Program-made: the position numbers and the translations under genes
Source of the DNA: Terriglobus roseus
Lineage (GTDB): Bacteria > Acidobacteriota > Terriglobia > Terriglobales > Acidobacteriaceae
Direction of reading: 5' to 3'
NCBI RefSeq assembly: GCF_900102185.1
Contig: NZ_LT629690.1
Coordinates: 558,001 to 622,000, forward strand
Length of the DNA stretch: 64,000 nt
The notes under the pieces: model-generated
What the model saw: the letters and a program-made list of their open reading frames with translations, nothing else
What the model was told of the DNA's origin: nothing
The model's database searches: none
In this document: positions 23,595-45,471 of the stretch, in pieces
Position numbering within the stretch: the stretch's first letter is position 1
Layout of the letters: every line of letters begins with the position of its first letter

Positions 23595-23791
23595 GGAGGC
23601 AGCGTTCTGTTGCGGTGATTCATTCCTCGCATCGTTCTGGACGTGGAATGCTTACCACCGGCAGGAGTCAAGAGGAGATAAAGACGGCCGCCGTCGGCAA
23701 GACGGGTGTTCTTCGACGGAAGCATTTTGTTGGGTATTGTGCTGTGTCCGGCGACTGTATTGGATTTGCATGGAACAACCGTGAACGGGTT

Positions 23792-23813
23792 GATGGCGGA
23801 GAGGGAGGGATTC
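23792..23813. repeat. attL, left attachment-site repeat
   Basis: 22 bases identical to 45380-45401. They reproduce the 3' end of tRNA-Ser (CCA end, acceptor arm and part of the T arm), the usual crossover core of tRNA-targeting integrases. Confidence 0.92.
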
Positions 23814-23889: not shown

Positions 23890-23914
23890 ATTATTGAAGA
23901 GGAGAAAATCGTAC

Positions 23915-25093
23915 ATGGCCAATAGGACAGTGAAGCTTTACAGGAATTGCAAGACCCCGGAGGGATGGAAACGATATCCCGCCGTGATGTCTGCCAATGG
24001 CAAAGTGAAGCCCGATACAGTCCTAGTTAAGGGTGTCGAAGTGGTCTACCCTACTGGACGGTATGAGTTGCGATCCTATGCAGGGACTCGAACCGTCTGG
24101 ACTCCAGTAGATGGCAATGCAACTGTGGCACTGGCAGAACAGAAGACGGCGCAAAAGAAAGCCGCTGCAAAAGCTGTGGCAAAGAATGCCGGTGTCGCAG
24201 TCGTCGAAGATTCATCCCGCAAGGTGCTTAAAACGTGGGCCGATAAATGGGTGAATGCTGCACTGGATCGTGGATCGCTGGAAGCTGCTGAACTGTACCG
24301 TAGAACCGCCGATGCATTCCTGCTTGTGTGCAGCAAAACCTATGCCGACGACCTGACCCATGATGATGTATTGGCATTCCAACGTTCCATGCGTTCACAG
24401 GGCTATGCGGACAGAACGATTGCGAATCGTCACAGTCACATTCGAACATTCTTCATCTACATGGACTTGGACAAGCGTATTGCTGGCGCAAATCCACGAT
24501 ATGAGAACAAATTGCCGGAAGTTTATGAACCCGGTGAACTGAAGAAGTTCTTCAAATCTCTGACCGTTCCCAAGGATGAGTTGCTGTTCGACATTCTGCT
24601 GACAACTGGCCTGAGAGAACAAGAAGCATCACACCTTGAATGGACGGATATCCATTGGTCTAGAGGAACCCTGAAAGTCCAATCCAAGCCCAAATGGGGA
24701 TATCGAATCAAGGATGCAGAAGAACGAGAGATGCCACTTTCCGATGATCTTCTGAAGAGACTGAAGTCAATGAAAGATGGAAACAACCTGATATTTGGTT
24801 TAAAGGGTGACGTTCCTGATGGTCATTTATTGCGGAAATTGAAGAAGCTCGTTCGGGATGCGCGTCTCAACTGTGGCAAGTGCGACTCATGCGAGAAGCA
24901 CAATGAATGTGAGAACTGGTTCCTGCACAAGTTCCGTGCGACCTACATCACAACACTGTTGAGGAATGGTCTGGACTTGCGCACTGTGATGACACTATCG
25001 GGCCATTCTGACCTCGAAAGCGTTATGCGCTACCTCCGTCCTGCTGAAGGTGTGGCCGTCAAGAATGCCGTGAACTCGATTAAATGGCGATAG
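23915..25093 (+). CDS. int: Tyrosine recombinase (phage integrase) with cysteine cluster
   Basis: A 392-residue integrase that should insert and excise the element at tRNA-Ser. The N-terminal part (about 1-100) is basic and includes an Ala/Lys-rich coil. A core-binding domain follows (LKTWADKWVNAALDRG, RTIANRHSHIRTFF). The catalytic domain shows Arg in TTGLREQEASHLEW, HKFRATYITTLLRNGLDLR and GHSDLESVMRYLRP with the nucleophilic Tyr. A CGKCDSCEKHNEC cluster just before the HxxR box looks like a zinc-binding insertion. The ATG at 23915 is chosen, with GGAG ten bases upstream. It lies next to attL. Confidence 0.93.
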   Translation: MANRTVKLYRNCKTPEGWKRYPAVMSANGKVKPDTVLVKGVEVVYPTGRYELRSYAGTRTVWTPVDGNATVALAEQKTAQKKAAAKAVAKNAGVAVVEDSSRKVLKTWADKWVNAALDRGSLEAAELYRRTADAFLLVCSKTYADDLTHDDVLAFQRSMRSQGYADRTIANRHSHIRTFFIYMDLDKRIAGANPRYENKLPEVYEPGELKKFFKSLTVPKDELLFDILLTTGLREQEASHLEWTDIHWSRGTLKVQSKPKWGYRIKDAEEREMPLSDDLLKRLKSMKDGNNLIFGLKGDVPDGHLLRKLKKLVRDARLNCGKCDSCEKHNECENWFLHKFRATYITTLLRNGLDLRTVMTLSGHSDLESVMRYLRPAEGVAVKNAVNSIKWR

Positions 25094-26296: not shown

Positions 26297-27736
26297 ATGA
26301 CGAAGAGAATTTTCTCAGCAGCAGCCGCCCTTATGCTTTTGCTTACAGGATGTGATCAGAAGAAGCAGCAAACAGTGGTGGACACATCACGCCAGAGCCC
26401 GCAGAACAGCGTCAACGACTCTCTGCTCCATGCCCGCGCTGTACAGGCTGTTATTTGGGGCATGCCTGCTGTGAACTATGACCTGATGCTTCAGGAGATG
26501 CTGAGTAAGACCTCCTCAAAGCAAAACGAGATCGTCTACTGGTCCCGTCCGGTGGACTGGAAGAATCAGACCCTAACGCCCAATCCCGACGCGCTGTATT
26601 TCATGGTGTTCTTCAACACCAAAGATGTCGGCCCCATCGTGATTGAGGTTCCACCCGCCGACAACGGCGTCTTCGCAGCAAACATCGACACGGTCTGGCA
26701 GATGCCGCTCGAGGATGCGGGCCTGATCGGCGCGGATAAAGGCAAAGGCGGAAAATACCTGATCCTCCCGCCGGGCTTTAAAGGCAAAACACCCACTGGA
26801 TACTTCGCCGTTCAATCAGACACTTCGGGCGGCTACGCTCTCCTCCGCTCGAACTTGGCCAGTCACAGCGATGCCGACATCGCGAAGGCTCTAGCCTACG
26901 GGAAGCGCCTCAAAGTCTATCCGCTTTCGCAGGCCGCCCAACCGCCTGAGACCAAGTACACCGATGCTAACGGTGTTTCCTACGACTCCACTATCCCTTA
27001 TGACCTTCGCTTCTTCCAGTCTCTCGATCGCATCATCCAAGCGGAGCCCTGGCTAACACGCGATAAGGCCATGATCGATCAACTCAAATCGATCGGCATC
27101 GAAAAGGGCAAGCCCTTCAACCCCGATACAAAGAACACCGAGATCTTCAAGAGTGCTGCCATTGATGCCCGCGACTATATCGATGGCCTCTACCAGGCGG
27201 GGTTCCCGCCTTTCTTCCCCGGCTCCCGTTGGGCCGTGCCGGCGATGCCTGAACTTGTTAAGGAAGGCTCCTCAGGGTATGCCGATCCTGACACCTATCC
27301 TGTCGATGCCCGCGCCTTGACCTATTCAATAGGCTATGTCGGGATCAAACGCCTCGGCACAGCTCAGTTCTATCTCATCGAGAGTAAGGACAAGAATGGA
27401 AACGCCTTTGATGGCAACGCTACCTACCGCCTTCGCGTTCCCGCCAATGCTCCCACCTCGCAGTACTGGTCTGCAACCGTTTATGACCGCGTAACGCACG
27501 CTCTCGTCAAGAATCTCGATCGCGCCAGCCGCGCATCGAATGACGCCTCACTGCAAAAGAATTCTGACGGCGCAGTCGATATCTACTTCGGCCCTAAGGC
27601 TCCCGCTGGTAAAGACTCCAACTGGGTTCCGACTGACCCCAATCGACAATTTGAGGTTCTCTACCGCATCTACGGACCCACGAAGGCGCTTTTCGACAAA
27701 ACTTGGACGCTGCCGGACATTGAAAGGCTCCAGTAG
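26297..27736 (+). CDS. DUF1254/DUF1214 domain lipoprotein
   Basis: A 479-residue lipoprotein (lipobox LLLTGC, Cys19). DUF1254 comes first: VQAVIWGMPAVNYDLMLQEM, LTPNPDALYFMVFFNTKDVG, and GFKGKTPTGYFAVQSDTSGG. DUF1214 follows: YVGIKRLGTAQFYLIESKD, YRLRVPANAPTSQYWSATVY and FGPKAPAGKDSNWVPT. The family is widespread in proteobacteria and acidobacteria; its biochemical role is not established. It is a full-length gene well inside the integrated element and has no link to phage growth, so it is probably carried for the host's benefit. Confidence 0.85.
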   Translation: MTKRIFSAAAALMLLLTGCDQKKQQTVVDTSRQSPQNSVNDSLLHARAVQAVIWGMPAVNYDLMLQEMLSKTSSKQNEIVYWSRPVDWKNQTLTPNPDALYFMVFFNTKDVGPIVIEVPPADNGVFAANIDTVWQMPLEDAGLIGADKGKGGKYLILPPGFKGKTPTGYFAVQSDTSGGYALLRSNLASHSDADIAKALAYGKRLKVYPLSQAAQPPETKYTDANGVSYDSTIPYDLRFFQSLDRIIQAEPWLTRDKAMIDQLKSIGIEKGKPFNPDTKNTEIFKSAAIDARDYIDGLYQAGFPPFFPGSRWAVPAMPELVKEGSSGYADPDTYPVDARALTYSIGYVGIKRLGTAQFYLIESKDKNGNAFDGNATYRLRVPANAPTSQYWSATVYDRVTHALVKNLDRASRASNDASLQKNSDGAVDIYFGPKAPAGKDSNWVPTDPNRQFEVLYRIYGPTKALFDKTWTLPDIERLQ

Positions 27737-29007: not shown

Positions 29008-29532
29008 TTAAGCCGTTGGAATGGCCAGCATCCACTTAATCATTTCCAGAATGATGGCATGCTGCTTCGCCTGATTGTATTTCTTACGAATCTGATGCAT
29101 GTGAGACTCACTCTTCCCACACATTTTGCAAATCTGATAGTTGCTGAATCCCCTATCCATTAGGCGATGGAATACGGCAAGCTGTCTTCTAGTAAGGTTT
29201 GGCCCTCTAAACTTGCGATTCGGATTGCATCTTTTCTTCGCTTTTTTGTCTGCCATATTCAGGGCTTGGTTCGCAAGTAGAAGACAATCGCGGCTTACGC
29301 AAAGACGGTTATCGCATTTGTGCATGATGACGGAAGGCTTCTCTTCATATGTATCGGGAATTGGCCCATTGTGCATTTCATAGGCGAATCGATGCGCATA
29401 GACTGTCTTACCTGTTACTGGATCGCGGTATAGTCCATATCCATTACGTGATACATTGCCGTTCCAAATATGTGTACATGCATTGGTTGCTGTTGTTTTT
29501 GACTGAAAGTTTTCAATTGATTTAGTGGCCAT
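29008..29532 (-). CDS. HNH endonuclease (homing type)
   Basis: A 174-residue protein. The N-terminal half shows WNGNVSRNGYGLYRDP, VYAHRFAYEMHNGPIPDTY and VIMHKCDNRLCVSRDCLLL, the layout of phage HNH_3 nucleases with His and paired Cys for metal and catalysis. The C-terminal half (LTRRQLAVFHRLMDRGFSNY and QICKMCGKSESHMHQIRK) is a helix-turn-helix that would bind target DNA. GGAG eight bases before the ATG supports the start. Such genes are typically selfish passengers in phage genomes. Confidence 0.8.
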   Translation of the reverse strand: MATKSIENFQSKTTATNACTHIWNGNVSRNGYGLYRDPVTGKTVYAHRFAYEMHNGPIPDTYEEKPSVIMHKCDNRLCVSRDCLLLANQALNMADKKAKKRCNPNRKFRGPNLTRRQLAVFHRLMDRGFSNYQICKMCGKSESHMHQIRKKYNQAKQHAIILEMIKWMLAIPTA

Positions 29533-29623
29533 TTTCCTTTCTCCACATGTATTTAGGGAGAACTCGAAAAATGACCAGATAAGGCTTCAAAAGTGCCTGT
29601 TTTGGAATTGCCTAAATACCTGC

Positions 29624-30076
29624 ATGGATACAGGTCACTGGCAGCACCCTTGGAAATCGTTCGATATTGACGATTGGACAGGGTTCGTCTACGTGATTAC
29701 ATGCACTGCCAACAATCGGAAATATATTGGCAAGAAGTTCTTTCACTCGACCACTCGCAAACAAGTAGCGGGGAAGACGCGACGAAAGAAAGTTGTGAAG
29801 GAATCGGACTGGAAGAAGTACACCGGAAGTTCCAAAGCACTGAATGATGACATCCAGCTATACGGCAAGAATGCTTTCAGATTTGAGATTGTCTCTTTGC
29901 ACGAAACTAGATCGTCTCTTTCGTGGGAAGAAGCAAGACAGATTGTTCTGCATGATGCCTTGAGAGCTAAGAATGCCAATGGGGAAAAGCTCTTCTATAA
30001 CGGCATTCTTGGGCCAGTGAAGTTCTCAATCACCGACGAGACGGAACTAGAGAGACAGTATCGGCATCATGTTTAA
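29624..30076 (+). CDS. Phage endonuclease of the GIY-YIG type, putative
   Basis: A 150-residue protein. Residues about 16-36 (GFVYVITCTANNRKYIGKK) fit the GIY-YIG start, with the second motif YIG, and the following basic stretch and ESDWKKYTGSSKALNDD, GKNAFRFEIVSL match the phage Seg-like group. The ATG at 29624 starts just before the domain; a longer frame to 29525 adds unrelated residues. It lies divergent from the HNH gene. Either DNA cleavage for homing or a repair function is possible. Confidence 0.7.
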   Translation: MDTGHWQHPWKSFDIDDWTGFVYVITCTANNRKYIGKKFFHSTTRKQVAGKTRRKKVVKESDWKKYTGSSKALNDDIQLYGKNAFRFEIVSLHETRSSLSWEEARQIVLHDALRAKNANGEKLFYNGILGPVKFSITDETELERQYRHHV

Positions 30077-30365: not shown

Positions 30366-30608
30366 TTGACCAAGAAAGAAGCAATCAACACCGATGAAAT
30401 AGAGATTGAGAAGATCCAATTCAAATCCCTTTGGAAAACTGCACCATCATTGAAACCAAGTGTTGGCATGATGGACGCTTGTGCACGTGGAGATAAACAC
30501 GCAAAGGCAATACGTGATGCTTGGAGGTTCAAAGCACCAGTTGTCACACTATCCCACGAAGAATATGCGGAATTGATTGAACGATGCACGGTGACGTTCA
30601 ATGGCTAA
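30366..30608 (+). CDS. Small phage protein of unknown function
   Basis: An 80-residue protein, starting with TTG supported by GGAG seven bases upstream (a further TTG at 30339 is less likely). It is acidic at the start and helical after (PSVGMMDACARGDKHAKAIR, LSHEEYAELIERC). Its stop overlaps the next gene, a sigma-like factor, by eight bases, so they are cotranscribed. No family recognised. Confidence 0.55.
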   Translation: MTKKEAINTDEIEIEKIQFKSLWKTAPSLKPSVGMMDACARGDKHAKAIRDAWRFKAPVVTLSHEEYAELIERCTVTFNG

Positions 30609-31044
30609 TCTGGGTCAGCTTCATCAACAGTATTCAGCTTCGATGAATGACCTTCTAAAAGAAGTTCGTCATATTGCGACGAAGTCCCATCCCCAATATG
30701 GCGAAGACATAGCCCAACAGGTCATGTTGTTTGTCTGGGAGAATCTTCCGCAGTTCAACCCCGATGGCAAACCAAAAGCGTTTGAGAGATGGTGTTCAAC
30801 CGTCATTCGTCGCAAACGGTTCGAAGCACTGGAAGCGAGGCTTCAACACACATCATCGGAGGGAATGATGGAAACAGCCATTGAAGACGATTCCGTCCAC
30901 ATTGATATTTCGGGATTGCCGGAAGACATTCGAGAGGTGGCCCAATCCTTTTTGGATGGATATTCCATTCGAGAGACTGCGGCCAGACTGAACCTCAAAG
31001 AAGGAACATTGAGAAAAAGGCTTCACGCTTTTCGAAATCGGTAA
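30601..31044 (+). CDS. Small sigma-70-like factor (phage-encoded)
   Basis: A 147-residue protein with region-2-like helices (ASMNDLLKEVRHIATKSHPQ, QVMLFVWENLPQFN, FERWCSTVIRRKRFEALEAR) and a region-4-like helix-turn-helix (VAQSFLDGYSIRETAARLNL then KEGTLRKRLHAF). This is the minimal ECF layout. It lies just before the holin, packaging and portal genes, so it may turn on late genes of the element, or redirect host polymerase. Distinct from the host ECF factors in being shorter and lacking a partner anti-sigma gene. Confidence 0.7.
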   Translation: MANLGQLHQQYSASMNDLLKEVRHIATKSHPQYGEDIAQQVMLFVWENLPQFNPDGKPKAFERWCSTVIRRKRFEALEARLQHTSSEGMMETAIEDDSVHIDISGLPEDIREVAQSFLDGYSIRETAARLNLKEGTLRKRLHAFRNR

Positions 31045-31205: not shown

Positions 31206-31223
31206 GTGTCTCAAAGGAACCAA

Positions 31224-31526
31224 ATGAACATCATCGTCAAATATCTCGCAACCATTGGTCTCGCCCTCATCGGCAAGCTTGTGCCATCCCTGAAATCTTT
31301 TCTCGTCAACTTTATTAAGAGTGATGTCGGCACATTGGCCAAAGATGCTGTTGCATATGCGGAAACTCTCACTGGCGCAACAGGTGTGGAGAAACGTGAT
31401 GCTGCCGTTGCCAAGCTGAAGGAAGACCTAGCCTCTGCGGGACACGATGTCTCAGAGTTCTCTGCCAGTCTGTTGAACATGCTGATCGAATCAGCATTGC
31501 AGGCGGTTGTTCTCAAACTGTCGTGA
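31224..31526 (+). CDS. Putative phage holin, LLH-type
   Basis: A 100-residue protein with a hydrophobic N-terminus (MNIIVKYLATIGLALIGKLV), then AKDAVAYAETLTGATGVEKR and DAAVAKLKEDLASAGHDVSE, ending in LLNMLIESALQAVVLKLS. This pattern fits the LL-H family of holins, which make pores in the inner membrane for lysis. The ATG at 31224 has AAAGGA upstream. No lysin gene is seen near it, so its lysis role in this element is uncertain. Confidence 0.6.
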   Translation: MNIIVKYLATIGLALIGKLVPSLKSFLVNFIKSDVGTLAKDAVAYAETLTGATGVEKRDAAVAKLKEDLASAGHDVSEFSASLLNMLIESALQAVVLKLS

Positions 31527-31880: not shown

Positions 31881-32022
31881 TGGACTGCTTGCTCAATAAC
31901 AATCTAGCGAAGTGGCAGATCAACCCTGAAGCAAAATTGCAAAATATTTCCGTTCGTACACCCCTGCATGTAAATAGCCCTCCCAAGCGACAAGCCAAAC
32001 TAACGTGCAGACATGTTTCGCC

Positions 32023-32382
32023 ATGCCATCCATTCCTAACAAGCCGTGTAGTCACGTCGGATGCAGCAACCTGAACTGCACATTGCATATCAGGCATTCA
32101 GACAAGAGCTACAACAGATATAGAGGAACGAGTCATTCACGTGGATATGACAACGAATGGAAGAAGCTTCGTCTATCAGTCCTTAGACAAGAGCCACTAT
32201 GCAAGATGTGTCTCGATGAACAACGAGTAACACCTGCTACGGAAGTTCACCACATCATCCCCATCCGCACTGATCCCACAAAGAGATTGGATCGTTCAAA
32301 CCTGATGTCCCTTTGCAAGCCATGCCATAGCAGGATCACTGCTACCAGTCTCGATAAGGCACTTTCGAGCCTTCAACGTTGA
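32023..32382 (+). CDS. HNH endonuclease of the packaging module
   Basis: A 119-residue HNH nuclease. Seen: RGYDNEWKKLRLSVLRQEPL, two CxxC pairs (CKMC and CKPC), and VHHIIPIRTDPTKRLDRSN with the catalytic His. Such proteins lie next to terminase genes in cos-type HK97-like phages and work with the terminase to cut packaging DNA. Here an unrelated DUF2971 gene has been inserted on the other strand between it and terS; the two overlap by 41 bases at their ends. The ATG at 32023 is preferred to that at 32005. Confidence 0.82.
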   Translation: MPSIPNKPCSHVGCSNLNCTLHIRHSDKSYNRYRGTSHSRGYDNEWKKLRLSVLRQEPLCKMCLDEQRVTPATEVHHIIPIRTDPTKRLDRSNLMSLCKPCHSRITATSLDKALSSLQR

Positions 32383-33268
32383 CACTCATCCCCAAGCCTG
32401 AGAAATAGGAACGAAGCGCACCTGTCGACAGAGACATATTAGGTGTCGGCCCCACGATCACCCGATGGATAAAATCTCTTGATCGAAGTTCAGATATTGA
32501 TTCATATAAGGGAATCGATTCGATGGCTTTCTTTGGCAGGTTCAGCTTGATATACGGAACTAGAGTTGTACGTGAGGCGCGATAGCGCACAAGGTTTTCG
32601 CTGTTATCGAGCAATCCGTCGACTACTATGCGGTATTCCGCCTCGGGTTTGAACGCAGGATGCTTTTGGGCAGAAGCGCGAAAGCCGAGTATCGACTGGA
32701 AGATCACATCTAAACCGAGTTTGTTCTTAATCTGGTTGTCGAAGTCCGCTGCTGCGCTCAAGAACTCTCTGAGTTCTTCATCCAGCCGACGGTCGTCAGA
32801 CACCCCGTAAACAACCTGCTTGAACCGAACGTCGTGGAACGGTCGATTCAATTCGCGAACAACCTCGTTGTCTGAGAAGCAGGCCCGAACAAGACAATTT
32901 GTTCTAAAGCCTATGCAGACACCGTTGCCGTTCGGACAGTAGGAACGCCATTGCGGGAGAAAATCCGGTTCGGCTGAAAACGAGGCGACAAATGGACGGC
33001 GTCGGATAATGCCCGAACCCATGCCAGTCCGTCCCTTGAGATAGCTTTCGAAAAATGCCGACTGTGAATCTCCGTTCTTCACGAATTCGCGAAGTCTTCT
33101 ATCGACCTGCTCAAGATAGAAAGAGTATTCCGTCACATCGTTCAAGTAGTCGATGCATGTTGCCCAAATAGAACGGCTCTCGACAATCTTCAACAATGTC
33201 TCCATCGATGTGTAGTGGTACACCACCTCTGGCAGAGACGTCGCTTCTTCGTCCATGTTGCCTGTCAC
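32342..33268 (-). CDS. DUF2971 domain protein (cargo)
   Basis: A 308-residue DUF2971 protein. Conserved points: HYTS (residue 18 on) in VVYHYTSMETLLKIVESRS, YLNDVTEYSF, ASFSAEPDFLPQWRSY, GNGVCIGF and AEYRIV near residue 211. The family is common on mobile elements; its activity is not established to my knowledge. The layout of an early His-Tyr, a middle Ser and a late Glu in an E-Y-R box recalls ADP-ribosyltransferases, which is only an inference. It interrupts the packaging module in reverse orientation, typical of a later-acquired cargo gene. Confidence 0.8.
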   Translation of the reverse strand: MTGNMDEEATSLPEVVYHYTSMETLLKIVESRSIWATCIDYLNDVTEYSFYLEQVDRRLREFVKNGDSQSAFFESYLKGRTGMGSGIIRRRPFVASFSAEPDFLPQWRSYCPNGNGVCIGFRTNCLVRACFSDNEVVRELNRPFHDVRFKQVVYGVSDDRRLDEELREFLSAAADFDNQIKNKLGLDVIFQSILGFRASAQKHPAFKPEAEYRIVVDGLLDNSENLVRYRASRTTLVPYIKLNLPKKAIESIPLYESISELRSRDFIHRVIVGPTPNMSLSTGALRSYFSGLGMSVNVEGSKVPYRDW

Positions 33269-33384: not shown

Positions 33385-33888
33385 ATGGTAGGACGTAAAC
33401 CAAAGCCAGCGGCGATGCATGAACTAGAAGGAACCCGGAATCGCCACAAGAATAAAGGCAGAGAGCCACAGTTCTCCGGTGTTCCAACCTGTCCAGACCA
33501 TCTCGACGATATTGCCAAAGAAGAGTGGGAACGTGTTGCACCAGAATTGTTAGCTGCGGGACTACTCACAGAGGCCGATGGTTCAGCTCTTGCGGCATAT
33601 TGCGCGGCATACTCTCGCTGGATTAATGCAGAACTCCAGCTTCAACAGAATGGCATGGTGTTCCATTCCCCGAAGTCTGGATACCCCGTGCAAAGCCCAT
33701 ACATTGGCATTGCCAACACTTCCTTGACCCTCATGCGCCAATTCCTAACCGAATTCGGCATGACTCCTGCCAGCAGATCGCGGATAACCGTGATGGAAAG
33801 TGACACACAGGATAAAGACCCCTTTACGGCATTCATGAATGAAATCGGAGCAATAGAACCCGATGACGAACAAAAGAACCTACAGTGA
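33385..33888 (+). CDS. Terminase small subunit, P27 family
   Basis: A 167-residue DNA-recognition subunit of the packaging motor. Diagnostic: GRKPKPAAMHELEGTRNRHK at the start, CPDHLDDIAKEEWERVAPEL, AYCAAYSRWINAELQLQQNG, and SPYIGIANTSLTLMRQFLTE. Full length for the family. It overlaps the large subunit by 26 bases, as expected for a coupled pair. Confidence 0.9.
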   Translation: MVGRKPKPAAMHELEGTRNRHKNKGREPQFSGVPTCPDHLDDIAKEEWERVAPELLAAGLLTEADGSALAAYCAAYSRWINAELQLQQNGMVFHSPKSGYPVQSPYIGIANTSLTLMRQFLTEFGMTPASRSRITVMESDTQDKDPFTAFMNEIGAIEPDDEQKNLQ

Positions 33889-35533
33889 AAAGGCTCATGA
33901 CTATGCACGCGATGTAGTATCCGGCACGATCATTGCCTCAAAGTGGATCAAGATTGCTTGCCAGCGTCATTTAGACGATTTGGACAAGACCGATTCACGT
34001 TGGTTCTTCAATGCAAACAAATGCAATCAAGTTTGCACTTTCATCGAGAGTCTGACTCTCTCCGATGGCTCTCCATTCGCGCTCCAGCCGTTTCAAGTAT
34101 GGCTAGTGGCTTCCCTGATGGGATGGATGGATAGAGATGGAACTCGCAAACACATTGAAGCACTCATCCTGATTCCAAAAGGCAACGGCAAGTCACCATT
34201 GGCCGCTGCACTCGGTTTGTGGTTCGCATTCTTCGATGGAAGACGTAAGGCAGAAGTCTATTGTGGTGCATTGTCCATTGCGCAAGCGATGGAAGTATTC
34301 TCACCCGCACGCGACTTCATTGAATCTCAGAAGGCGTTCACAAAAGCAGGAATTGCTGCGCAAAAGAAGTCCATCTTCTCTGCATCCGGCTCAAAATTTA
34401 TGCCGGTCATTGGGCGTGGTCGTCACGGTGCAAGGCCATATCTGGCGATCCTTGATGAATTGCATCAAGCCAATGACTTCGACCTTTATGGCACCTTCAA
34501 GACAGGGTGCAACAAGACTCCAAATAGCCTGATGCTGACGATTTCAACAGCTGGTGTTGCATCGACTCAATCGCCTTGCTACCAGATTCAGGAGCGCGCA
34601 CAGAAAGCTCTAGATGGATCGTTACCGGATGAACGATTTTTCGCAGCGATCTATTGTGCCGATGACACTGTCGAATGGTCGTCCAATGAAGCCCTGATAA
34701 TGGCGAATCCCAATCTCGGCATCTCCAATGACGCTGAGAAATTGAAGTTGGCCATCCAATCGGCTTTACGTAATCCCGGCGAACAGAACAACACCAAGGC
34801 CATGCACCTGAACATCTGGTCTACAGCCACATCCGCATGGATGAATATGGTTGATTTCGCCAAATCCTCCGATCCATCCCTGAAGATTGAAGACTTCTCT
34901 CAAGATGAATGCATTCTTGCGCTCGATAGCGCATCGAAACTCGATCTTGCATCTATTGCGATCCTGTTCACACGATTGATTGACGGAAAGAAGCACTATT
35001 ACGCATTCAGCCGGAACTACAACCCCGAAGGACAGGTTTCAAAAGCTGAAAATGTCCACTATCAGAAGTGGGTGAAACAAGGTCATCTCATCGCCACTGA
35101 TGGCAATGCTATTGATTTTCTTCGTTTGGAAAATGACCTGATTCATTTGGTCAAGACGAACAACGTTCAATCACTGTGTTTCGATCCTGCACACGGCGGA
35201 TATGGAACAGTGCAGAAGGTCGTTTCAGAAACGAATGTGACCTCTGTTGAAGTCATGCAGCGTCCGATCCACATTTCCCCTGCAATGAAAGAACTTGAAG
35301 CTGCTGTTGCAGATGGTCGATTCCACTACGATGGCGATCCCATCCTCGCATGGTGCTTCTCAAACATCGTCACACGCGAATCCTCCAACAGCCTTTACAA
35401 AATGCCGGAAAGAGAACGTGCCGAAAACAAGATTGACGCGGCTATGGCTCTGTTCTTCGCACTCTCACGCGGAATGGTCATTGAAGTCAAGCCATCGGCG
35501 TCCAAGTGGGCTTTTGAGCCATTCGTGCTGTAG
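33863..35533 (+). CDS. Terminase large subunit (HK97-like)
   Basis: A 556-residue ATPase and nuclease that pumps and cuts phage DNA. Walker A is IPKGNGKS (about 104-111), Walker B is LAILDE (194-199), and the nuclease domain begins at ILALDSASKLDLASIAIL with paired Asp residues. The sequence is complete and appears functional, although the head genes it would serve are largely deleted. Start overlaps the small subunit gene. Portal follows after 19 bases. Confidence 0.92.
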   Translation: MTNKRTYSEKAHDYARDVVSGTIIASKWIKIACQRHLDDLDKTDSRWFFNANKCNQVCTFIESLTLSDGSPFALQPFQVWLVASLMGWMDRDGTRKHIEALILIPKGNGKSPLAAALGLWFAFFDGRRKAEVYCGALSIAQAMEVFSPARDFIESQKAFTKAGIAAQKKSIFSASGSKFMPVIGRGRHGARPYLAILDELHQANDFDLYGTFKTGCNKTPNSLMLTISTAGVASTQSPCYQIQERAQKALDGSLPDERFFAAIYCADDTVEWSSNEALIMANPNLGISNDAEKLKLAIQSALRNPGEQNNTKAMHLNIWSTATSAWMNMVDFAKSSDPSLKIEDFSQDECILALDSASKLDLASIAILFTRLIDGKKHYYAFSRNYNPEGQVSKAENVHYQKWVKQGHLIATDGNAIDFLRLENDLIHLVKTNNVQSLCFDPAHGGYGTVQKVVSETNVTSVEVMQRPIHISPAMKELEAAVADGRFHYDGDPILAWCFSNIVTRESSNSLYKMPERERAENKIDAAMALFFALSRGMVIEVKPSASKWAFEPFVL

Positions 35534-35552: not shown

Positions 35553-36875
35553 ATGAATTTTAGAAAAATGCTGGAAGCTTTTGGGGATAGTGAATCGAAT
35601 ATCACTTCACTGGAACTTCGAACAAGTTTGGAATCACCCTCTGTACCACTTTCAAGTGCTGCTGCTTTCAATTTTGTGTTCTCAGGCGATCCAACAGAAG
35701 CTGGAGAATTCATTGGTGAAAGCAATGCACTTCAGATTCCCACCGTATATGCATGTGTTCGTCTGATCGCCGAAAATATCGCCACATTCCCAGTCAAGGT
35801 TTATTCAAATGCCGGTATCGGCAAGAAAGAAGCATTGGATCATTCCCTTTCATACCTTCTTTCCTATGCACCAAACCACGAAATGACATCCAGTACATTT
35901 TTCGAGGCACTCGCGGGAAGTCTTGCTTTAACCGGCAATTGTTATGCCGAGATTGAGAGGGATAAGAAGGGCAATGCCATTGCATTATGGCCGCTTCATC
36001 CTCTTAAAACAGCTCCACAACGCGACGAAAAGGGTGTCCTGTCCTATAAAACGACCGATGGAACGGAACGTGTCATTACTGCGAAAGATATGATCCACGT
36101 TCCCCTAGTGTCTTTCGATGGATTACGCGGCCTTAGTCCCGTGGGCCAAGCTCGCCAAGCCCTTGGCCTTGCAATGGCAACTATTAAGAGTGGCGCGAGA
36201 TTTTTCGGTAATGGAAGCCGTCCCGGTGGAATTCTAACGCCCAAAACAGCTTCCAATGTGTCACCTGAGCAAGGCCAGCAAATGAAAGCGGCTTTTGAAG
36301 GCATGACTGCTGGATTGAACGCCGGACGTATTGCAGTGATTCCAAGTGACTGGTCATATACACAAATTGGTCTAAGTCTTGAAGATTCCCAATACCTCGA
36401 ATCCCGTGCATTCAGCCGCAACGAAATCGCTGGATTGTTCAGGATTGATCCCCATTACCTTGGTGATACCACCCGACAGAGCAATGCAAATTCCGAACAT
36501 TCTGCTTTGTCATTGGTGCAGGATACCCTCCAGCCCTATATCACCAAAATCCAGCAAGAACTCAATCGCAAGCTTCTACCACCCACAGGCCGTGTGAGAA
36601 GCACGTTCCATATTGCCTTCGATTATTCCGAACGACTGAAGACAGATTTCAAGTCCACATTGGAAGCAATCGCTGTTGCGAGACAGTGGGGAATCTTCAC
36701 TGCTAACGAGGGACGCGAGAAGCTAGGACTCGATCCAGTTGGTGACGAAGGAAACATTCTGATGAACCCCACAAACATGATGAATTCGGCATTGTTCCCT
36801 GATTGGTATCCGAACAAGGCACAAGAGACGAAGTCCACCCGGACAAGGAAAAAGAAGAATGAACCAGAACTTTGA
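35553..36875 (+). CDS. Portal protein, HK97 family
   Basis: A 440-residue portal subunit that forms the ring through which DNA enters the head. Recognised from FVFSGDPTEAGEFIGESNAL, PTVYACVRLIAENIATFPVK, FEALAGSLALTGNCYAEIER, and EIAGLFRIDPHYLGDTTRQS, with the C-terminal RSTFHIAFDYSERLKTDF. Complete. Its end overlaps the start of the head protease remnant by 17 bases. Confidence 0.92.
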   Translation: MNFRKMLEAFGDSESNITSLELRTSLESPSVPLSSAAAFNFVFSGDPTEAGEFIGESNALQIPTVYACVRLIAENIATFPVKVYSNAGIGKKEALDHSLSYLLSYAPNHEMTSSTFFEALAGSLALTGNCYAEIERDKKGNAIALWPLHPLKTAPQRDEKGVLSYKTTDGTERVITAKDMIHVPLVSFDGLRGLSPVGQARQALGLAMATIKSGARFFGNGSRPGGILTPKTASNVSPEQGQQMKAAFEGMTAGLNAGRIAVIPSDWSYTQIGLSLEDSQYLESRAFSRNEIAGLFRIDPHYLGDTTRQSNANSEHSALSLVQDTLQPYITKIQQELNRKLLPPTGRVRSTFHIAFDYSERLKTDFKSTLEAIAVARQWGIFTANEGREKLGLDPVGDEGNILMNPTNMMNSALFPDWYPNKAQETKSTRTRKKKNEPEL

Positions 36876-37305
36876 GAAACGAACATCCCGCGATAGTTCT
36901 TTGGGATTGTCCGAAGAGAATGGAAACACACTGACTGGTTATATTGCCTTGTTCAACACGTCATCCGTGGATATGGGCTTCACTGAAATCCTGGCCCCCG
37001 GCTGTTTCACATCATCGCTTGAGAATCCCGATGAAGACGTGGTTTGCCTAGTGAATCACGATGACGATGCACCCATCGGCAGAGTATCCGCAGGAACACT
37101 GAAGCTCGCGCAGGATGAACAGGGTTTGGCATTCAGCGTCGATCTACCCGATAATCACTGTCGCCAGAGAGATGGTGGAAAGCATTCTCAATCGCGCGAT
37201 CTATACCCAATCATGGCGAATGACAATGGATTCATTCCCATATCCAACATGTTTCGCAACGATCACACCAAGCGAAAGAAATCCATACTCTTACATTCTC
37301 GATAG
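36859..37305 (+). pseudogene. HK97-type prohead protease, truncated
   Basis: The first about 94 residues (LTGYIALFNTSSVDMGFTEI, APGCFTSSLENPDEDVVCLV, NHDDDAPIGRVSAGTLKLAQ, LAFSVDLPD) match the N-terminal part of HK97 head-maturation proteases. The sequence then changes abruptly to an unrelated tail (NHCRQRDGGKHSQ) and stops at 148 residues. The catalytic Ser region and C-terminal half are missing. From about 37140 the other frame carries a head-tail connector instead, so a deletion joined the two genes out of frame. It should be inactive. Confidence 0.8.
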
Positions 37306-37744
37306 ATTTTCCATTTCAGTTCCTCTTGGTGGTGTGAAGGAAATCACAAGTGTCAATTACACGGATTCATCGGGATCTCATACCATCGATCCTTCCACGT
37401 ATCGTGTGGATACAAATTCTCAACCTTCCTTTGTCTCAGGATCGAAGTATGGATTTGAGTTTACGGATGGTTCGGGAACGCCTCCAGCGATCACCGCAAT
37501 CAACGTCATTGGCCCAACCACATTGGAGATGATTCTTTCGGCGGCTCCAGCAGTTGGAACACGCTATCTGAATTACGCCTATACGGGTGCTAGTGGTGCG
37601 CTTGCAGGCCCAACAACTGGCCCACGTGGAAACCTTCGTGACAGCGATACCTACAAGTCCCTTACAGGTGGCGGCATCACGATCAATGGAACTGCAAACT
37701 GTCTGCCGAACTGGTGTTTGCACCAGCACTTCCAAATCAGCTAA
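37140..37744 (+). pseudogene. Fused remnant: head-tail connector end joined to virion protein end
   Basis: The frame opening at 37115 (ATG within the protease remnant) reads, from about 37140, AREMVESILNRAIYTQSWRM then ISVPLGGVKEITSVNYTDSS and TIDPSTYRVDTNSQP, the C-terminal part of a gp6-like head-tail connector. From about 37425 it changes to GTPPAITAINVIGPTTLEMI, GTRYLNYAYTG and GPRGNLRDSD, with a close (NWCLHQHFQIS) like the end of a phage tail or esterase-type virion protein. Two deletions are implied. Translation is possible but a function is unlikely. Confidence 0.65.
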
Positions 37745-37771: not shown

Positions 37772-38581
37772 ATGACAACAGGCATTGGTATCAAGCTGGC
37801 AAATGCCAGCTTTCCATTAAACTTTCCCACAGTCCAATGGACTCCAACACAGCTTGGAAGCTCTGTCCTAGCGTGGTTCGATCCAGCAATTGGAATCACT
37901 CAGACAAGTGACCGCGTCACACAGTTGAATGACCGAAGCATAAATGGTCTGAATCTCACCCAGACAGGTTCAGGTGCACAACCTCTCTTGATTGAGTCAG
38001 CAGTCAACGGAAGGCCCGGTATTCAGTGCGACTCAATTTCCGATCCTAGCCGTGGAATTTGGGGGCCGACAACTGATGGGAAGACGAATTTCTCGACTAC
38101 CACTCCATTTAGCTTCGGCATTGTGCTAAAGAAAGTTTCGAACACGACAAACAATGGAAAGTCATGTTTCGGCAATTTCGACGGCGCAGGTTCCGGTTGG
38201 TGCATTGAGACATCGCAGAACGGTGGCGGCAAGCTGAATTTCATGCTTATCAACTCCGCGTGGACACATGCGTTAGTCGTAACCTCAACAACAACCCCAT
38301 TGGTCGTTGGAGGAACGTATGTAATTGTCGTTACCTATGATGGTTCAGCCACACCGGGTGGTATTACAGTCACCATCAATGGCGTCTCGCAGACTCTTTC
38401 TACATGGGTAACCAAGCTGGAGACCGAAGTCTATTCGATTTTGGGGAATGGAAAGCCCGGACGATTGGGAGAGGCTGAAAGCGCGATTGATTCTTTGAAA
38501 CAATGGCGCTGGAGAATGGCAGGCATCACAACGGCCATCTCCTCCTTCGTTTCAATTCTGGCGTGGCTCTTCAAACATTGA
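37772..38581 (+). CDS. Chimeric virion protein: LamG-like domain with membrane-helix tail
   Basis: A 269-residue product. Residues about 20-205 look like a concanavalin/LamG-type phage surface protein (SSVLAWFDPAIGITQTSDRV, QLNDRSINGLNLTQTGSGAQ, GTYVIVVTYDGSATPGGITV). The last about 55 residues (KLETEVYSILGNGKPGRLGE, WRMAGITTAISSFVSILAWL) instead resemble a small XhlA-like phage protein: a GNGKPG turn, then a terminal membrane helix. The join at about 38410 suggests a third deletion fusion. A second copy of the tail segment lies at 39303-39410. Confidence 0.6.
   Translation: MTTGIGIKLANASFPLNFPTVQWTPTQLGSSVLAWFDPAIGITQTSDRVTQLNDRSINGLNLTQTGSGAQPLLIESAVNGRPGIQCDSISDPSRGIWGPTTDGKTNFSTTTPFSFGIVLKKVSNTTNNGKSCFGNFDGAGSGWCIETSQNGGGKLNFMLINSAWTHALVVTSTTTPLVVGGTYVIVVTYDGSATPGGITVTINGVSQTLSTWVTKLETEVYSILGNGKPGRLGEAESAIDSLKQWRWRMAGITTAISSFVSILAWLFKH
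38459..38566 (+). repeat. Direct repeat copy 1 (membrane-helix segment)
   Basis: About 108 bases coding GRLGEAESAIDSLKQW and a membrane helix. It matches 39303-39410 with clear DNA similarity; the stretch AACGGCCATCTCCTCC is identical. The two copies flank the exported cargo gene at 38612-39223. Confidence 0.75.
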
Positions 38582-38611: not shown

Positions 38612-39223
38612 CTAGTCGAGTGCGCTCTTAGCAGGGTTCGATTTCTTCTCGTCAATGTACTTCTTGTCAGTAATCGTGAAGCGAATGAACTGACTCGGAG
38701 TGGCTTTGGGGTCTACATCCTCGTACAGCAGAACAGTGTATTTGGAAGCAATCCAAACAGTGTTCCGTAGTTCCCACCTGGCTCCAAAGAGGTTCTGTTT
38801 GACCTCAACATGAGTCTCAGTAGGCTGGCCGAACTTCTTCACCGTGTCTTCGAGGGCAGACTCCCATGGAGTGTTGGTGATCTTCAAGTTCAGAACAACA
38901 AGTTCATTCTTCGAGAACCCAGCAACACCTTCGAAGTCCCTACACATATCCATGTTGTAGCGCGGGTTACTACACACGATGACTCCGTTCCCACCTGAGG
39001 ATGCCACAGTCTGGAAGTTCCGACAGTCAATACTGACTTTCTCTTTGGTTCCGGCCTTGGCAGCGCATCCCTGAAATCTCGCTCTGCTTTCTGCCCCAAG
39101 CTTCTGCACGAACTCCGCGACTGACTCTCCAATCGTATGTCCCTTGACGGGCGGTGCGGTTGATTGGGCAGGGGTTCCGGCTGCTGACGAGAGCAGCAAC
39201 CCCAAGACAGTAAGAGCAAGCAT
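38612..39223 (-). CDS. Exported protein of unknown function (cargo)
   Basis: A 203-residue protein with a signal peptide (MLALTVLGLLLSSAAGTPAQ). The start at 39223 has GGAG six to seven bases upstream; the longer frame to 39415 runs into the flanking repeat and is not used. The mature part has five Cys residues and a C-terminal half (LNLKITNTPWESALEDTVKK, FGQPTETHVEVKQN, FIRFTITDKKYIDE) with no recognised family. It lies between two copies of a phage membrane-helix sequence and reads against the phage genes, so it is inserted cargo. Confidence 0.65.
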   Translation of the reverse strand: MLALTVLGLLLSSAAGTPAQSTAPPVKGHTIGESVAEFVQKLGAESRARFQGCAAKAGTKEKVSIDCRNFQTVASSGGNGVIVCSNPRYNMDMCRDFEGVAGFSKNELVVLNLKITNTPWESALEDTVKKFGQPTETHVEVKQNLFGARWELRNTVWIASKYTVLLYEDVDPKATPSQFIRFTITDKKYIDEKKSNPAKSALD

Positions 39224-39302
39224 TTCAAATCTCCAAGAAAGCAACCGCAACAGATTATCAGAAACAGAATATGGCATAGTACGGCCACCGGATGCAGGTC
39301 GA

Positions 39303-39410
39303 GGACGCTTAGGTGGGGCGGAAGCGGCCATCGATACTTTTGAACAGTGGCTATGGAGAATCGCTGGAATAACAACGGCCATCTCCTCCGTTGTTTCAAT
39401 TCTTTCTTGA
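39303..39410 (+). repeat. Direct repeat copy 2 (membrane-helix segment)
   Basis: Encodes GRLGGAEAAIDTFEQWLWRI and ITTAISSVVSIL in frame, ending in TGA, but lacks a proper gene start; the sequence before it is not the GNGKPG segment found in copy 1. Remnant of a second XhlA-like gene or a duplication made when the cargo gene entered. Confidence 0.7.
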
Positions 39411-39548
39411 CTCATGAAGCACTCAGCTATGCGAACAATTTGGTGCTTAATCGCCTATGACAGAAAGAGCAGCCTGAGAAAGTATCTATTGCAACGTCGT
39501 CTCGCTGAGTTTTAGTGTTAACGGAAGCTTGGTGAGGATGGCACAGCA

Positions 39549-42439: not shown

Positions 42440-42673
42440 ATGATTGGAGGAAAGAAAAGTCTTAAAATTGATCCACAACTGGGGGTGATCGCATCCATAG
42501 CCATCCATCCCCATATGCTCTCTGCGGAAGAACTTGCATCTGCACTGTCCATGAGTCCAAAGACGATCTACTCCCAAGCAAAGAACGGCACACTTCCGGC
42601 CATTCGCATTGGCCAGTGTGTGCGATTCGATCCAAAGCATGTTGCGGAATGGCTGTCTAAACGTGTGGCCTGA
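42440..42673 (+). CDS. HTH DNA-binding protein, excisionase/AlpA-like
   Basis: A 77-residue protein consisting of one winged helix-turn-helix of the excisionase family (MLSAEELASALSMSPKTIYS, GTLPAIRIGQCVRFDPKHVA, EWLSKR). Such proteins act as excisionase with tyrosine integrases or as small regulators. It is divergent from the Rep-like operon across an AT-rich region. It may direct excision or control Rep expression; the choice is not readable. Confidence 0.82.
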   Translation: MIGGKKSLKIDPQLGVIASIAIHPHMLSAEELASALSMSPKTIYSQAKNGTLPAIRIGQCVRFDPKHVAEWLSKRVA

Positions 42674-45379: not shown

Positions 45380-45401
45380 GATGGCGGAGAGGGAGGGATT
45401 C
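45380..45401. repeat. attR, right attachment-site repeat
   Basis: 22 bases identical to 23792-23813, lying at the 3' end of the intact tRNA-Ser gene, which the element leaves functional. Confidence 0.92.
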
Positions 45402-45471
45402 GAACCCCCGTTCGGCTTTCACCGAAAGCTGTTTTCAAGACAGCCTGTTTCAACCACTCACACACCTCTCC
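45382..45471 (-). tRNA. tRNA-Ser (anticodon TGA)
   Basis: On the minus strand the 90 bases fold as a class II tRNA: acceptor GGAGAGG pairs with CCTCTCC, discriminator G and encoded CCA, anticodon stem GCTGT/ACAGC around CTTGAAA (anticodon TGA, read UCA), a long variable arm (CTTTCGGTGAAAGC) and T loop GGTTCGAATCC. Serves as attB of the integrated element. Confidence 0.95.

Follow-up and report, generated by a model that had tools for sequence, protein, structure and literature searches.

An Integrated Element at a tRNA-Ser Gene of Terriglobus roseus

The stretch analysed here (64,000 nucleotides, hereafter the window) belongs to a host chromosome assembled as one contig of 4.85 Mb, with a completeness of 99.98%. 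It harbours an integrated element of 21.6 kb spanning positions 23792-45401. The element is bordered by two identical 22-nt direct repeats, attL (23792..23813) and attR (45380..45401), the latter lying within the 3' end of a tRNA-Ser(tga) gene on the reverse strand (45382-45471). Adjoining attL, an open frame of 399 aa on the forward strand codes for a tyrosine integrase (23894..25093; PF00589, E 6.6e-21), and a small helix-turn-helix protein, whose role might be that of an excisionase, is encoded on the same strand at 42440..42673 (PF12728, E 9.4e-12). The element-free site was found in two genomes of the same genus, G166 and G031, whose sequences show 90% and 87% identity, respectively, with the right flank. 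In both of them homology continues through the att site and enters about 60 bases with 85-86% identity to the left flank of the window; farther left they rejoin homology with the window only near 17 kb, G166 also matching at 23650-23727. The element may still be able to excise, as neither the integrase nor the att repeats show signs of damage.

The forward strand of the element carries genes for a phage sigma-factor-like protein (30601..31044; phrog_1740, E 8.5e-14; 46% identity to its counterpart in the sibling prophage of genome G219, see below), a holin (31206..31526; PF09682, E 1.1e-6; phrog_608) and, upstream of the terminase, an HNH endonuclease (32005..32382; PF01844, phrog_144). They are followed by the small subunit of the terminase (33385..33888; PF05119, E 7.1e-29; phrog_83), an open frame for the large subunit (33863..35533; PF20441, PF03354 and phrog_9, the last with E 1.3e-136) and the portal gene (35553..36875; entire PF04860 profile, 1-321, E 5.5e-99), which is single-copy in the chromosome. 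An earlier note on this DNA had described the packaging genes as intact, and indeed both terminase subunits and the portal cover nearly full Pfam profiles. In an alignment of six sequences the large terminase keeps the invariant residues G109-K110-S111, D198-E199 and D355, which we take to be the Walker A, Walker B and nuclease positions. The nearest large terminase among those aligned is 57% identical, and the searches revealed no closely related element. On the far side of the region described below, a virion-associated protein is encoded at 37772..38581 on the forward strand (phrog_10356, E 2.2e-6). Its position after a tail gene recurs in relatives: homologues with 32% (L053, genome G047) and 22% identity (L054, genome G117) lie directly 3' of the tail match in both.

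Several further genes and repeats lie within the element. An opposite-strand gene at 32342-33268, between the HNH gene and the terminase small subunit, has homologues in three of the ten relatives searched (L052, L058 and L061) and may represent recurrent cargo near terminase genes. At 29008-30076, genes for an HNH_3 protein and a SegE-type GIY-YIG endonuclease adjoin in opposite orientation, and a DUF1254/DUF1214 cargo gene is located at 26297-27736. A direct repeat of 119 nt with 76% identity (38459-38577 and 39303-39421) represents the 3'-terminal portion of the gene for the virion-associated protein; its copies flank the body of an opposite-strand frame at 38612-39415, which overlaps the right copy. 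This arrangement resembles a partial duplication with inserted cargo between the copies.

The Protease Gene Is Cut Short at a First Junction

At 36859..37152 the forward strand encodes the N-terminal part, about 98 residues, of a prohead protease. The earlier note had placed the end of the protease match at about 37140, which was approximately borne out: residues 19-100 align with the first half only of the Peptidase_S78 profile (PF04586, positions 9-91 of 165, E 2.8e-21), and homology to the related locus L061 ends at 37152, while the frame itself stays open beyond this point as far as 37305, where it stops. As counter-evidence, with the window itself left out, the protease match extends to residues 132-143 in 4 of 31 rows; one of these long rows, L060, was inspected residue by residue and consists of a weak gapped extension. 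According to the tblastx end points against L061, the one relative used for this purpose, connector homology resumes at 37154, which places junction 1 at 37152..37154 with a shift of frame. The other frame past this point is 64% identical to a gp6-like connector.

In all fetched relatives that allowed the two sides of junction 1 to be located (L056-L061), these sides are separated by 1728, 1897, 1948, 2122, 1903 and 1968 bp, respectively, and each of the six shows capsid homology in this interval; in the window the two sides adjoin directly. The comparison with related prophages proposed in the earlier note has thus located what is missing at this junction, a stretch of 1.7-2.1 kb with the capsid gene at the same place. 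A chromosome-wide search with Phage_capsid (PF05065), the one capsid family used and a model that does not detect all types of capsid, gave no match.

A Frame of Two Origins Crosses a Second Junction

The open frame at 37115-37744, which overlaps the protease frame and codes for 209 aa, has two origins. Its residues 10-108, approximately (37154..37438, forward strand), match a connector of genome G219 with 64% identity (E 1e-40), and the match to the head-tail adaptor family phrog_442 reaches only E 2.7e-4. This piece corresponds to residues 38-136, approximately, of a 219-aa frame in G219. The earlier reading of a gp6-like connector therefore stands, except that the middle of the protein is present and not its C-terminal part. 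Residues 98-208, approximately, of the same frame (37412..37744, forward strand) represent the C-terminal 105 residues or so of a tail protein of about 830 aa, including its own stop, and match homologues in G047 (56%, E 3.5e-25) and G117 (50%, E 1.1e-21) as well as the tail fibre family phrog_4201 (profile positions 583-673 of 676, E 2.4e-16). A change at about 37425 to the end of a tail or surface protein, as had been proposed, agrees well with these limits.

Junction 2, which joins connector and tail protein in frame, was delimited to 37412..37438 by the overlap of the two homologies, with the connector match (L052) extending to 37438 and the tail match (L053 and L054) starting at 37412. 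No relative locus holds both sides. Relatives of both parents show similar short stretches with a proline codon in this zone, which would be consistent with a deletion between short matching sequences; no direct repeat of at least 14 bases was present at the joins among those listed for 22800-46000. In G117 the tail end lies about 13.7 kb past the capsid gene, and by analogy with this locus perhaps some 12 kb were lost at junction 2; most tail genes have probably disappeared from the element. The claim that the rest of the protease, the capsid gene and most connector and tail genes are missing was thus confirmed for the protease, for a capsid of family PF05065 and for the connector, while the loss of the tail genes is presumed.

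Neither Junction Was Found in the Other Genomes Searched

The fused connector-tail frame was searched in 300 genomes of the host family and was found in one, the window's own; none of the others shows the joined architecture as a single conserved protein, the case named in the earlier note as speaking against deletions. Weak matches across junction 2 in G197 (29%, E 1.1e-4) and G255 (26%, six stops, E 2.1e-4) were rejected as fusions, because a separate search with the connector and tail pieces paired both at E 1e-3 only in the window's locus among the fetched loci. In short-reach scans, 29 stretches of the genome_contigs collection fitted the pattern of fused-frame relatives with none confirmed, the fused frame gave one confirmed locus in viral_contigs, on the tail side alone, and the exact 25-base pattern of junction 1 occurred in neither collection. 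Seven stretches of viral_contigs fitted the portal relatives, again with none confirmed, and a phage collection yielded one weak match to the fused frame, on the tail side (E 5e-3).

In a survey of 200 family genomes, 23 portals scored at least 250 bits, and for 21 of them a capsid gene was present within about 4 kb. The two capsid-less cases are the window's portal and one on a contig of 3586 bp that ends 2.6 kb past the portal.

A sibling prophage was detected in G219, a genome of the same genus (L052, G219:C1:392000-411900). Both elements share the sigma-like protein, the HNH endonuclease, the antisense gene, the terminase small subunit and the connector. In the sibling, however, the stop of the terminase small subunit gene directly adjoins the sequence for the C-terminal 246 residues, approximately, of a capsid protein, with the join near L052:12565-12575, and the large terminase, the portal, the protease and the N-terminal part of the capsid protein are absent from the element. 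Neither a large terminase nor a protease matched anywhere in the G219 genome, and its sole PF04860 portal match lies about 2 Mb from the sibling; judging by its score, this portal would belong to the syntenic cluster with weaker portals described in the last section. Two related prophages have thus lost different parts of one operon, as expected of random erosion.

A Prophage Probably Disarmed by Deletions

We consider it highly probable that the element is a defective (cryptic) HK97-type tailed prophage whose structural module has been cut by at least two deletions. It is integrated between att repeats and carries an integrase, essential virion genes are absent (no PF05065 capsid) or partial (protease, connector), and relatives hold the missing genes at the same place in the case of junction 1. 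Successive deletions, as suggested earlier, are well supported, since both joins lie inside genes, one of them shifts the frame, and six relatives hold 1.7-2.1 kb where the window has nothing. An intact HK97-type tailed prophage would have integrated into the tRNA-Ser gene. One deletion, of roughly 1.7-2.1 kb, would then have removed everything from the middle of the protease to the first part of the connector gene, including the major capsid gene. Another would have taken the remaining connector and the bulk of the large tail protein, presumably together with the neck and tail genes between them; the order of the two events is our inference. The three joined gene scraps would be functionless. 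With capsid and tail genes missing, the element is not expected to form particles on its own. Most likely it is inactive as a virus, and the terminase and portal genes may persist because the deletions are recent.

The order of the terminase small and large subunits, portal and protease is that of HK97-type siphophage head modules, and the families match (PHROG 83, 9, 12, 80 and 442 were compared), but here the protease is halved, the capsid gene is missing and the connector is reduced to a middle piece. A survey of cryptic prophages (PMC7744054) describes deletions that remove lytic structural genes while the border integrase is kept, as in this element, and counts terminase and portal among the genes preferentially lost; here, in contrast, terminase and portal survive, and protease, capsid, connector and tail are hit. 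Among 24 acidobacterial genomes, 19 were reported to carry putative prophages, 35 in total, of which six were classed as decayed (PMC5900883).

Some features speak against simple decay. Both terminase subunits, the portal and the integrase look intact, with the invariant residues of the large terminase kept, which need not be so in a long-dead prophage, the fused frame is still open over its 209 aa, and the long protease rows reach beyond junction 1. Recent deletion explains the intact genes as well as selection would. Alternatively, the element might be a packaging satellite with its own terminase and portal that relies on a helper phage for capsids and tails, the scraps being leftovers of its origin. 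Integrase, att sites, terminase subunits and portal would all be at hand, a capsid gene was not detected, and the element encodes a small helix-turn-helix protein. Capsid-forming PICIs and other satellites are likewise small islands at tRNA genes that combine an integrase with terminase genes. Capsid-forming PICIs have, however, a capsid gene of their own, and the element shows no PF05065 match in its chromosome, no conserved architecture in the genomes searched, and truncated frames. To our knowledge, satellites either retain capsid genes or have no portal. The earlier note had held that the same junctions in many genomes would support a stable satellite, but the fusion is absent from the other 299 family genomes and neither join appeared in the short-reach scans of genome_contigs and viral_contigs. 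Related elements hold capsid genes or, like the sibling, show other gaps, which favours independent erosion, and the chromosome offers no helper with a PF05065 capsid. We therefore regard the satellite reading as unsupported and very unlikely, even if one restricted to this strain would be compatible with the sequence. More improbable still is a packaging-only island in which terminase and portal, without capsid or tail genes, would serve to place the element's own DNA in helper shells, the portal seeding helper procapsids.

If the host retained the element for its cargo, or for a joined protein with, for instance, a new surface or defence role, this might account for the cargo genes and for the open fused frame. 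It is nevertheless a very unlikely explanation, as junction 1 shifts the frame and halves the protease, and of the 300 family genomes searched none but this one has the fusion. Least credible of all is an artefact of assembly or sequencing, by which genes really present were lost at the joins: the chromosome is a single, almost complete contig, no PF05065 match exists elsewhere in it to suggest that a capsid gene of that family was merely misplaced, and the listed repeats of 14 bases or more include none at the joins. The defective prophage thus looks like a product of ordinary prophage decay and not a new kind of parasite: one more decaying prophage, with unusually sharp deletion joins. Together with its sibling, which has a different gap in the same head operon, it provides a small natural example of prophage disarming within one genus.

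A Family-Wide Phage-Like Cluster outside the Window

The portal survey gave a match in 126 of the 200 family genomes. About a hundred genomes have a second, weaker portal of about 150-200 bits, mostly one per genome. In six fetched genomes (L066, G017:C1:1402000-1421900, and L067-L071) this portal sits in a syntenic cluster that comprises a terminase-like gene, the portal, small genes, a gene for a 321-aa protein, a connector and further genes. In L066, the terminase-like protein has 501 aa (phrog_2, E 8.8e-27), the connector belongs to phrog_442, HipA-like and DUF3037 genes are additionally present, and the cluster ends near purE, homologues of which occur in L069, L070 and L071 (four of the six stretches in total).

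The 321-aa protein is absent from the genome of the window. It gave no family match and a predicted fold with a mean pLDDT of 31, and a profile search against solved structures returned a single match, which was not significant (E 1.6). Being encoded between the portal and the connector, it is a candidate capsid protein, and the cluster is possibly a gene transfer agent or another domesticated particle; a literature search revealed no gene transfer agent described in Acidobacteria or Terriglobus among the matches listed. The cluster deserves a separate study. In the other five stretches the 321-aa protein is 75-92% identical to that of L066. Among the 200 family genomes it occurs in 115, from 52 of 79 genera, with full-length copies 71-100% identical, and is single-copy per genome except in G155, which has an additional fragment. 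A sample of the phylum contained the protein in 19 of 199 genomes, and all 19 belong to the host family.
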